A stretch of DNA of 64,000 nucleotides from positions 1 to 64,000 of the forward strand of contig JAADDZ010000026.1 in assembly GCA_013153635.1 (NCBI GenBank). Direction: 5' to 3'. This DNA is from Aquificota bacterium. Its GTDB lineage: Bacteria > Aquificota > Aquificia > Aquificales > Hydrogenothermaceae. A program made the position numbers and the translations under genes. Of the stretch, positions 12,310 through 14,731 are shown piece after piece. Every line of letters starts with the position of its first letter. Position 1 is the first letter of the stretch. The notes under the pieces were generated by a model that made no database searches, was not told where the DNA came from, and saw only the letters and a list, made by a program, of their open reading frames with translations.

Positions 12310-13309
12310 CATAACGACTCTTGTAAAAGCAAACACCAACAACTACGCAACAATACTCATCTATCACAAATTTGGAGAACAAAAATCTCCCTCTACCTCT
12401 ATACCACTAGAAACATTCAAAAAACAGATGGAATTCCTCAAAAAAAATCACTATAACGTAGTCTCTCTAAAAAAACTTCTCCAATACCTAAAAACAGGCA
12501 AAATTCCGCCAAAAACAGTGATAATAACAATAGATGACGGATACAAATCCACTATGAAAGCGTACAGAATCCTAAAAAATTATAACTTTCCTTTTACAGT
12601 ATTTTTGTATATGGAAGCCATCGCAAAATATCCAGACTTTCTAACCAAAGAACAGATACAAATCCTAAAATCTTACAAAAAGATAGAATTCGGAAACCAT
12701 TCCTATGCACATAAGAGATTCGCAAAAATTCCCAAAAATACAGATATAAAAATCTATAAACAAAACCTATTACAAGACATAAAAAAAGCAGAAGAAAAAT
12801 TTAAAGCCTTGATAGGTTACAAACCAAAATATTTCGCATATCCATATGGAGAATACAACGAAATCTTTGTAGAAGCAGTCAAAGAAACATCTTACAAAAT
12901 AGCTCTAACCCAAGACCCCTATAATGTAGGAATATTCACAAACTTATATCTGACCCCTAGACAGCCAATAGTAGGAAAATGGTCTACTATGACCCACTTC
13001 AAAAGAATACTAGAAACAGAACCACTAAATATAACACCAATTAACCCAAAATTTGGGTACTTGAAAAAAAATCCACCGGGACAATTCAAAGGCATACTAA
13101 AAAATCCAACAAATTATGAAAACTGTAAGCTTTACGTATCAGAACTTGGCTGGATAAATCTAAAAAAAGAAGGAAACTTCCTAATATCTCCAAACCTACC
13201 ATACCTAAAAAGATGGAAAAACAGAATTGGAGTAAAATGTAAAAATATAAAAACCAAAAAAGACGCTACCTACTTTTATATGATACTAAAAAAGGAGAAA
13301 AACCATTGA
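12263..13309 (+). CDS. Exported polysaccharide deacetylase (carbohydrate esterase 4 type)
   Basis: A 348-residue protein with a signal peptide (hydrophobic from about residue 5, ending TTLVKA) and a NodB-homology domain. Motif 1 is TIDDGYKST with the DD metal/base pair, motif 2 is GNHSYAHKRF (HxxxH), and motif 3 is FAYPYGEYNE. It probably removes acetyl groups from N-acetylglucosamine in peptidoglycan or surface polysaccharide. About 90 residues after the catalytic core look like a separate small beta domain with two cysteines. The TTG at 12263 has a GGAG seven bases upstream; an ATG at 12272 is the alternative start. It overlaps both neighbours, by 47 and 4 bases. Confidence 0.85.
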   Translation: MKNMTVVKFTLLIFISITTLVKANTNNYATILIYHKFGEQKSPSTSIPLETFKKQMEFLKKNHYNVVSLKKLLQYLKTGKIPPKTVIITIDDGYKSTMKAYRILKNYNFPFTVFLYMEAIAKYPDFLTKEQIQILKSYKKIEFGNHSYAHKRFAKIPKNTDIKIYKQNLLQDIKKAEEKFKALIGYKPKYFAYPYGEYNEIFVEAVKETSYKIALTQDPYNVGIFTNLYLTPRQPIVGKWSTMTHFKRILETEPLNITPINPKFGYLKKNPPGQFKGILKNPTNYENCKLYVSELGWINLKKEGNFLISPNLPYLKRWKNRIGVKCKNIKTKKDATYFYMILKKEKNH

Positions 13310-14193
13310 TTAATTACGAACAGATAAAACAAGACTACCAATTTACTCAAGAAGACATAAAAAATATACTCAAAATGAGAGACAGCTTACTCAAATATGA
13401 AGAAGAATTCCTTGATGAGTTTTATAGATTTATTTTCCACATGCCAGATACCAAAAAATACCTAACAAAAGAAAAGCTAAAAAAACATAGAGAAAAGCTA
13501 AGACAATGGTACAGAGACCTCCTATCGGGAAGATATGATAAAAAGTACTTCCAAAACCTGTACAGAATAGGAGAAAAACATGTAGAAATTGGATTACCCA
13601 CCCACTATGTAAATGCAAGCTTTAACTTTATAAGAAGATTCTTCATAAAGAAAATCAACCAAGAATACGGTTTTAGCGAAGAAGGAAACAAACTTATAGA
13701 ATCTATATCAAAACTACTAGATATAAACCTAGATGTTCTAACCAGTGCTTACAGAGAAGAAGAATTGAATAGATATAAATCTATATCTCTAGTAGAGAAG
13801 AGTCTTATAAAACTATCACAGAAGTTTGCCGATATATTAGATTTCACACTTGTTATAGCCTTAATTATCGTATCCTTTTTTGTAATCGGTCTTTTTGTAT
13901 ACGATATATACGAATTAGTTTTCCAAAAAGTACCTTTGGAACATGGAATAATCAAAGTTTTAGGTAGTTTACTAATTCTATGGGCAGTTAGTGAACTAAT
14001 GACAGAAGAGATAAAACATCTCAAAGGAGGAGGTTTTGCCCTTGGAGCATTTATAGGTCTCGCTCTTGCCGCAATGATAAGAAAAATACTTATAGCCTCT
14101 CTATCAGTTAGTAAAATACCAGAATTATTATCATACAGCGTGATAGTCCTTGCTCTAGGGATAGTGTATTGGTTGATTTCGAGAAAAAGATAA
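13306..14193 (+). CDS. Protoglobin (globin-sensor) domain fused to a PsiE-like membrane domain
   Basis: A 295-residue two-domain protein. Residues 1-155 read as a protoglobin/globin-coupled-sensor domain. The segment YRIGEKHVEIGLPTHYV (about 86-102) matches the proximal-histidine helix of that family and places the heme ligand at H92. Residues about 170-295 hold four hydrophobic helices (178-200, 216-232, 244-262, 276-292) with FADILDF, VSELMTEEIKH and MIRKILI, resembling the PsiE family. No kinase, cyclase or methyl-accepting output is present. The TTG/ATG region overlaps the deacetylase stop by four bases. It is convergent with the cbb3 oxidase operon, which suggests oxygen or nitric oxide sensing; the function is otherwise unknown. 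Confidence 0.8.
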   Translation: MINYEQIKQDYQFTQEDIKNILKMRDSLLKYEEEFLDEFYRFIFHMPDTKKYLTKEKLKKHREKLRQWYRDLLSGRYDKKYFQNLYRIGEKHVEIGLPTHYVNASFNFIRRFFIKKINQEYGFSEEGNKLIESISKLLDINLDVLTSAYREEELNRYKSISLVEKSLIKLSQKFADILDFTLVIALIIVSFFVIGLFVYDIYELVFQKVPLEHGIIKVLGSLLILWAVSELMTEEIKHLKGGGFALGAFIGLALAAMIRKILIASLSVSKIPELLSYSVIVLALGIVYWLISRKR

Positions 14194-14197
14194 AAAG

Positions 14198-14215
14198 AGG
14201 GGTCAAAAGACCCCT
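14198..14215. terminator. Bidirectional terminator hairpin
   Basis: AGGGGTC (14198-14204), an AAAA loop and GACCCCT (14209-14215) form a perfect 7-bp GC-rich stem between two convergent genes. Short A-rich and T-rich runs flank it (AAAAAG before, TTTAGA after), so it can serve both the globin-PsiE gene and the oxidase operon, more strongly in the minus direction. Confidence 0.8.
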
Positions 14216-14228
14216 TTAGATAATATAA

Positions 14229-14447
14229 TTATTCTCTCATTAATTCTCTTTGCCACAAATATTTATCTGCGGCTTCTGGACCTTGTCCTATAATAGACAT
14301 CCACCCAACAAAATCAGGTATCCATTCTAAAACAATATAAGAAACTGCAAAAATGATATAACCAATCCAGAACAACATCCACCATGTAGGAACTGCATCT
14401 GTTACATAAGTAATTTTATCTACTGCTTTTGGATTTTCAACAGCCAT
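14229..14447 (-). CDS. Stand-alone CcoP/FixP N-terminal-like membrane subunit
   Basis: A 72-residue single-helix protein, the last gene of the oxidase operon. The segment VPTWWMLFWIGYIIFAVSYIV resembles the membrane anchor at the start of CcoP (FixP_N), where a P-x-WW motif precedes one transmembrane helix. No heme motif is present. A plausible reading is that the CcoP anchor is a separate polypeptide here, while a separate diheme cytochrome c at the head of the operon carries the redox centres. A good Shine-Dalgarno (GGAGGG) precedes the ATG. Its start touches the stop of the 94-residue gene upstream. Confidence 0.7.
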   Translation of the reverse strand: MAVENPKAVDKITYVTDAVPTWWMLFWIGYIIFAVSYIVLEWIPDFVGWMSIIGQGPEAADKYLWQRELMRE

Positions 14448-14731
14448 TACTTTTTCCCTCCTTTTTCTGCTTGCTGAATTTTCTCTTCTAGCTCCAAAAC
14501 ATCATACTTAGGAGCCTCTATGTCTTTAAAATCTCCTTTTAGATAAGAATAGATAAACAAGAAAAACCAACCTGTCAATGCTATAACATAAGTAATCACT
14601 TCAACTAAAAAACCCTTCAACTCAAAACCAGCTTGGAGATAAGCAACCGTTCTTGTAGCTATTACTGTTCCCACTACAAAGATAAAGATAAACAAAGTGA
14701 GTAAAGCTACAAGATTCTTGCTAATTTTCAT
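14447..14731 (-). CDS. Small two-helix membrane subunit in the cbb3 operon, unknown
   Basis: A 94-residue protein with two predicted transmembrane helices (about residues 8-27 and 40-63) and a charged cytoplasmic tail rich in Glu and Lys (KYDVLELEEKIQQAEKGGKK). I do not recognise a family. It sits between ccoO and the CcoP-anchor-like gene, each with its own Shine-Dalgarno and almost no spacing. It is therefore probably an accessory or assembly subunit of the oxidase, perhaps in the place of CcoQ/CcoH. CcoQ is normally shorter with one helix, so the match is not direct. Confidence 0.7.
   Translation of the reverse strand: MKISKNLVALLTLFIFIFVVGTVIATRTVAYLQAGFELKGFLVEVITYVIALTGWFFLFIYSYLKGDFKDIEAPKYDVLELEEKIQQAEKGGKK

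Follow-up and report, generated by a model that had tools for sequence, protein, structure and literature searches.

A protoglobin-PsiE fusion of Aquificota: probably a globin-coupled sensor with a membrane output

INTRODUCTION

HemAT, DosC and AfGcHK are established globin-coupled sensors. The relative of solved structure closest to the protein described here is GsGCS of Geobacter sulfurreducens, whose full-length form presumably carries a transmembrane C-terminal part; the title of a 2009 report by Pesce, as cited in PMC4476040, names the F8 histidine as a heme ligand of GsGCS beside E11. GsGCS coordinates heme via its distal His66(E11) (PMC4476040). Output domains listed for globin-coupled sensors are kinases, cyclases, phosphodiesterases and chemoreceptors (PMC13401364, PMC12805357), with STAS and Roadblock domains as further examples (PMC4476040). 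The globins of AfGcHK (5ohe), DosC and HemAT adopt the same N-terminal sensor-globin fold as our protein, whereas their outputs are a kinase, a cyclase or a chemoreceptor rather than a PsiE membrane domain.

The name PsiE ties this protein family to phosphate starvation. A PsiE-like protein is also part of the tLST stress island, with its orf14 assigned to the oxidative-stress module (PMC8290217). Both associations are compatible with a stress output of PsiE without proving it. A literature search that excluded most subscription journals found no mention of PsiE together with globins and no relevant description of PsiE together with the blue-light sensor domain BLUF.

Here we characterize a gene on a stretch of 64,000 nt of contig JAADDZ010000026.1 from an Aquificota bacterium of the Hydrogenothermaceae. 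This whole stretch is called the window, and the product of the fusion gene the window protein.

RESULTS

A protoglobin and a PsiE domain in one chain

The preliminary description of the locus had read the N-terminal half as a protoglobin and the C-terminal half as PsiE-like with four membrane helices, and had proposed a profile search for both families. In this search both exceed their Pfam gathering cut-offs: Protoglobin (PF11563) scores 95.3 bits against 25 and PsiE (PF06146) 76.1 bits against 23.9. The structural model reproduces the globin fold of 2w31, hydropathy analysis places all of its four membrane segments C-terminally, within PsiE, and leaves the globin free of them, and the model agrees with the four helices, so that both assignments were borne out. 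Each of the 30 relatives in alignment A1 gives a match to both domains; a weak Pfam match of the window protein to Rsbr_N was also found. An N-terminal sensor globin followed by a C-terminal output domain in a single chain is the layout of a globin-coupled sensor. The features of the locus are collected in Table 1.

Table 1. Features of the fusion gene, its product and its surroundings (positions in the window)
Feature	Position	Strand	Evidence and conservation
Shine-Dalgarno-like AAGGAG	13292..13297	+	direct reading, 5′ of the TTG start
Protoglobin-PsiE fusion gene	13306..14193	+	295 aa, TTG start; full length conserved in relatives
Protoglobin (sensor globin) domain, residues 7-153	13324..13764	+	PF11563 E=4.8e-27; Foldseek 2w31 E=3e-7, TMt 0.92
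Tyr40, globin B10, distal pocket	13423..13425	+	Tyr in 87/98 fusions
His61, globin E7, candidate distal heme ligand	13486..13488	+	His at E7 in 59/98 fusions
His92, globin F8, putative proximal heme ligand	13579..13581	+	91/98 fusions; aligns with His93 of 2w31
His100, near-invariant, after the F helix	13603..13605	+	97/98 fusions
Predicted signalling path: globin helix 125-158, then 44-residue helix 162-205 entering the membrane as TM1	13678..13920	+	AlphaFold2 model
PsiE domain, residues 180-294, four transmembrane helices	13843..14187	+	PF06146 E=3.5e-21; hydropathy; model pLDDT 92
Glu230, charged residue, PsiE TM2	13993..13995	+	invariant, 98/98 fusions
Arg259, PsiE TM3	14080..14082	+	invariant in 62-sequence alignment A2, including stand-alone PsiE; 97/98 fusions
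Terminator-like hairpin shared by the fusion gene and the cbb3 oxidase operon that converges on it	14198..14215	.	

Upstream lies a polysaccharide-deacetylase gene, whose stop codon the TTG start overlaps. Because of this overlap and the AAGGAG motif, the fusion gene is probably the end of an operon. Both halves are under purifying selection, with dN/dS against congeners of about 0.05-0.08 for the globin half and 0.03-0.06 for the PsiE half (dS near saturation in both cases). The Pfam scores, the 30 relatives, the hydropathy profile and the dN/dS values therefore confirm that the fusion is real and no chance match.

The PsiE domain shares four helices and the invariant transmembrane arginine with E. 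coli-type PsiE, which stands alone whereas the window domain is fused. The cut-offs of the E. coli PsiE equivalogs (NCBIfam NF002763/NF002765) were not reached, with 23.6 versus 138 and 18 versus 145 bits, respectively; the window domain may therefore differ in function from E. coli PsiE.

Heme pocket and relation to GsGCS

For the comparison of residues we used a set of 98 distinct fusion proteins after removal of duplicates; more turned up afterwards, and the start codons of relatives were picked mechanically. The proximal histidine that had been proposed at position 92, in the motif GEKHVEIGLP, indeed aligns with the F8 histidine of 2w31. His100 is retained even in members that have no heme ligands.

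Crystal structure 2w31, the GsGCS globin, is the best solved relative both by sequence (E=5e-31) and by fold (TMt 0.92, rmsd 1.8), and belongs to the same sensor-globin family. The two proteins differ in the distal pocket: GsGCS has its distal histidine at E11, whereas the window protein carries Leu65 at E11 and a histidine one helical turn earlier, at E7. Among the 98 fusions a distal histidine occupies E11 in 27, and one protein carries both E7 and E11. The E11 type is that of a Geobacter-type subgroup, as in 2w31, and the fusions of family f5 have the F8 histidine and, in most members, the B10 tyrosine with no distal histidine. With the distal histidine at E7, at E11 or absent, one architecture accommodates several heme-pocket types. 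By likeness to the related GsGCS, the window globin probably binds heme b in a six-coordinate His61-Fe-His92 arrangement.

When the GsGCS globin was compared with the genomes searched, its exact sequence was found in none of them, and its closest relatives there (57-68% identity, Geobacter-type) turned out to be the same protoglobin-PsiE fusion. Measured against the GsGCS subgroup, the window protein has no distal histidine at E11, and the PsiE output is present in the Geobacter-family relatives of GsGCS. Since these nearest relatives of GsGCS are fusions of the same kind, the earlier statement that no characterised example is known went too far: for the globin half, 2w31 is a relative of known structure. 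As a kind, the fusion is a globin-coupled sensor, and the new part would be PsiE as a sensor-controlled output class.

Structure of the PsiE domain and the linker

The full-length AlphaFold2 model has a mean pLDDT of 84.8 and a pTM of 0.52; owing to this pTM, the mutual placement of the two domains is uncertain. Modelled alone from 62 sequences, the PsiE domain forms four helices with a pTM of 0.76. In the model the first PsiE helix continues beyond TM1 into the cytosol, where it points back to the final helix of the globin. We infer that the N and C termini of the PsiE domain are cytoplasmic. A search for solved structures resembling PsiE found none by sequence, and the best hit by fold had a non-significant E of 0.52. 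The membrane part has no conserved ligand pair for heme or a metal: His238, the sole commonly conserved histidine of PsiE, is kept in 64 of the 98 fusions.

Distribution of the fusion

Within a partial sampling of genomes, the fusion is common to Aquificota and 'Deltaproteobacteria' and occurs rarely in Pseudomonadota. The closest named records are from Hydrogenothermaceae (82% identity). In the phylum of the window organism 94 of 136 genomes, from several families, contain a match to the fusion or a part of it. Full-length fusions were found in 38 of 297 sampled genomes from the phylum of the 'deltaproteobacterial' relative, plus one interrupted copy. Among 274 genomes searched from the class of a Gallionellaceae relative, that genome is the only one with the fusion; one further pseudomonadote fusion is present in genome G851 (locus L281). 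No plasmid record matched in a search for homologues. In one genome the fusion gene (L217, G009:C1, about 1646135-1647038) is frameshifted within PsiE, which may reflect a pseudogene or a sequencing error.

The genome of the window organism also encodes two stand-alone PsiE paralogues (G000:C19:81972-82286 and G000:C24:45844-46197), and the organism therefore has both sensor-linked and sensor-free PsiE.

Gene neighbourhood

The preliminary description had placed the gene tail to tail with a cbb3 oxidase operon. This position is correct for the window, where CcoN-, FixO- and cytochrome c-like proteins are encoded in the convergent operon, but the adjacency is limited to the genus of the window organism (two congeners). 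With the adjacency restricted to a genus and a hairpin between the two transcription units, we rejected a functional link to the oxidase as general evidence. The cbb3 operon ends, past FixO and before the hairpin, in two small hydrophobic ORFs (14229-14731, minus strand), for which a search yielded no Pfam match.

In deltaproteobacteria the neighbours are ndk, rlmN and a nucleoside phosphorylase; elsewhere, depending on the lineage, cysS-type, folE and pyrH genes were found, mostly housekeeping genes (neighbours outside the Pfam scan were named by reading their sequences). SCO1 lies near the fusion gene in some Hydrogenothermaceae, and in the Geobacter family a ferrochelatase gene is convergent with it in six genomes (L177, L183, L186, L188, L189, L194). 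These two neighbours hint only faintly at a setting of heme or respiration. Across the compared neighbourhoods there was no conserved operon partner or obligate partner gene, and this lack of a constant partner suggests that the fusion is a self-contained device.

The respiratory neighbours bear on the suggestion, already made in the preliminary description, that the protein scavenges O2 or NO. The globin, anchored in the membrane, would then guard the respiratory oxidases as an NO dioxygenase or a scavenger of O2/NO, with PsiE only as anchor or electron entry. NO dioxygenase chemistry is common among globins, and the cbb3 operon in the window genus and SCO1 near some relatives would suit such a role. 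However, neither a reductase domain nor a conserved reductase neighbour was found, PsiE shows no conserved ligands for electron transfer, and the cbb3 adjacency does not extend beyond the genus. We consider a scavenger unlikely and find no positive support for it.

Loss of the globin and retention of PsiE

In an Aquificota-order family (f3, L063-L069) Tyr40, His61 and His92 are lost together, whereas the globin fold, PsiE and His100 are kept; judged by these residues, f3 appears to be a clade of heme-less globins comparable to RsbR. This clade, together with the weak Rsbr_N match, speaks for a fusion that works independently of the heme state, its globin fold serving as a non-gas stress or protein-interaction module as in RsbR and its heme being structural or absent. 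Yet the F8 histidine is present in the window protein and in >90% of the fusions, most of which also keep the distal histidine and the B10 tyrosine, and we regard this possibility as very improbable.

In genus g11 of the Aquificaceae, PsiE-only genes (L072-L075) occupy the locus at which G058 carries the fusion (L060). The coding sequence of the PsiE-only species starts at the linker (MEELK...), and examination of the in-frame upstream region at these loci revealed no globin sequence. In two other g11 species the globin has no residues from about 41-55 and 80-105, which removes the F8 region, and PsiE is complete. Altogether there are nine species in which PsiE has outlasted the globin, seven with PsiE only and two with an F8-less globin, several of them at the identical locus. 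In a PsiE tree, which is a quick tree built from few columns, all nine genes, seven of them PsiE-only and two eroded, are nested among the fusions, beside G058 (SH-aLRT 94). The genus thus presents a graded series (L060, L071-L075, L202-L206) in which the globin is full, half-deleted or absent and PsiE is always kept. The reverse case, a globin kept with PsiE cleanly deleted, was not encountered among the located orthologues in a non-exhaustive search; exceptions are the frameshifted gene of G009 and genes truncated where a contig ends. Stand-alone PsiE is present in many genomes. Because PsiE is kept, it reads as the output of the protein and the globin as an accessory input. Survival of PsiE after loss of the globin is also the opposite of what is expected if PsiE were a mere anchor for a scavenging globin.

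BLUF-PsiE fusions

A second type of fusion was found in Pseudomonadota, in which a BLUF blue-light sensor precedes a C-terminal PsiE domain (L254, L255, L257, L258, L259). Both domains score above the Pfam cut-offs in the four proteins scanned, and the fifth, L259, is near-identical. Like the window protein, these proteins combine an N-terminal cofactor-binding sensor with a C-terminal PsiE domain; unlike it, they take their input from a flavin-based blue-light sensor, which has no relation to globins. Since a flavin photoreceptor occupies the N-terminal slot, the arrangement implies that PsiE receives signals. Other long PsiE frames in several genomes proved to be mostly over-extended starts with no recognisable sensor.

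The BLUF-PsiE proteins are relevant to the direction of signalling. Domain order by itself gives no direction, and a stress-linked membrane domain such as PsiE might sense membrane, ion or phosphate state and tune the ligand affinity of the globin. Against this stand the occurrence of PsiE alone in many genomes, its retention when the globin is lost and the finding that another true sensor, BLUF, fills the same N-terminal slot; we attach hardly any likelihood to a reversed signal flow.

DISCUSSION

Our data favor a globin-coupled sensor in which the state of the heme drives a PsiE four-helix membrane output, a reading that we hold to be likely. In its best form it combines a putative bis-histidyl globin, responsive to redox state, NO, CO or O2, with PsiE as the membrane output. 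The earlier proposal that a globin controls a PsiE-type domain gains evolutionary support from the nested loss of the globin with PsiE kept, the joint loss of the ligands in f3 and the BLUF-PsiE proteins.

A switching mechanism can be sketched by likeness to the established globin-coupled sensors HemAT, DosC and AfGcHK. The cytosolic globin would hold heme b, probably six-coordinate, and His61 would be freed when the heme changes state, either by binding NO, CO or O2 or by being reduced or oxidised. Its release would shift the helices of the globin dimer, the shift would travel via the long helix into TM1, and the movement of TM1 would make the PsiE dimer of the inner membrane more or less active. 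PsiE would be an autonomous membrane effector, run by a heme sensor here, by a BLUF sensor elsewhere or by no fused sensor at all; candidate roles are a channel, a transporter or a partner-binding membrane switch.

Beyond the window protein, we lean towards the view that PsiE is a general sensor-controlled membrane output, of a class absent from the globin and BLUF partners named in the literature consulted. Heme globins would control it in Aquificota and deltaproteobacteria, and BLUF photoreceptors in Pseudomonadota. On the globin side the distal histidine could change place between E7 and E11 or disappear, and the whole globin could be given up with PsiE kept. The fusions and their derivatives offer a natural series for how a sensor is tuned and discarded: proteins with the distal histidine at E7, at E11 or at neither, proteins that have lost their heme ligands, and others that keep half of the globin or none of it. 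If sensors of both kinds, heme and light, plug onto PsiE, it would be a switchable membrane effector whose function is directly testable: BLUF-PsiE should be switchable by blue light and globin-PsiE by CO, NO or a reductant, in the same assay. The fusion also proposes an output for the crystallised GsGCS globin, which has so far been functionally unassigned.
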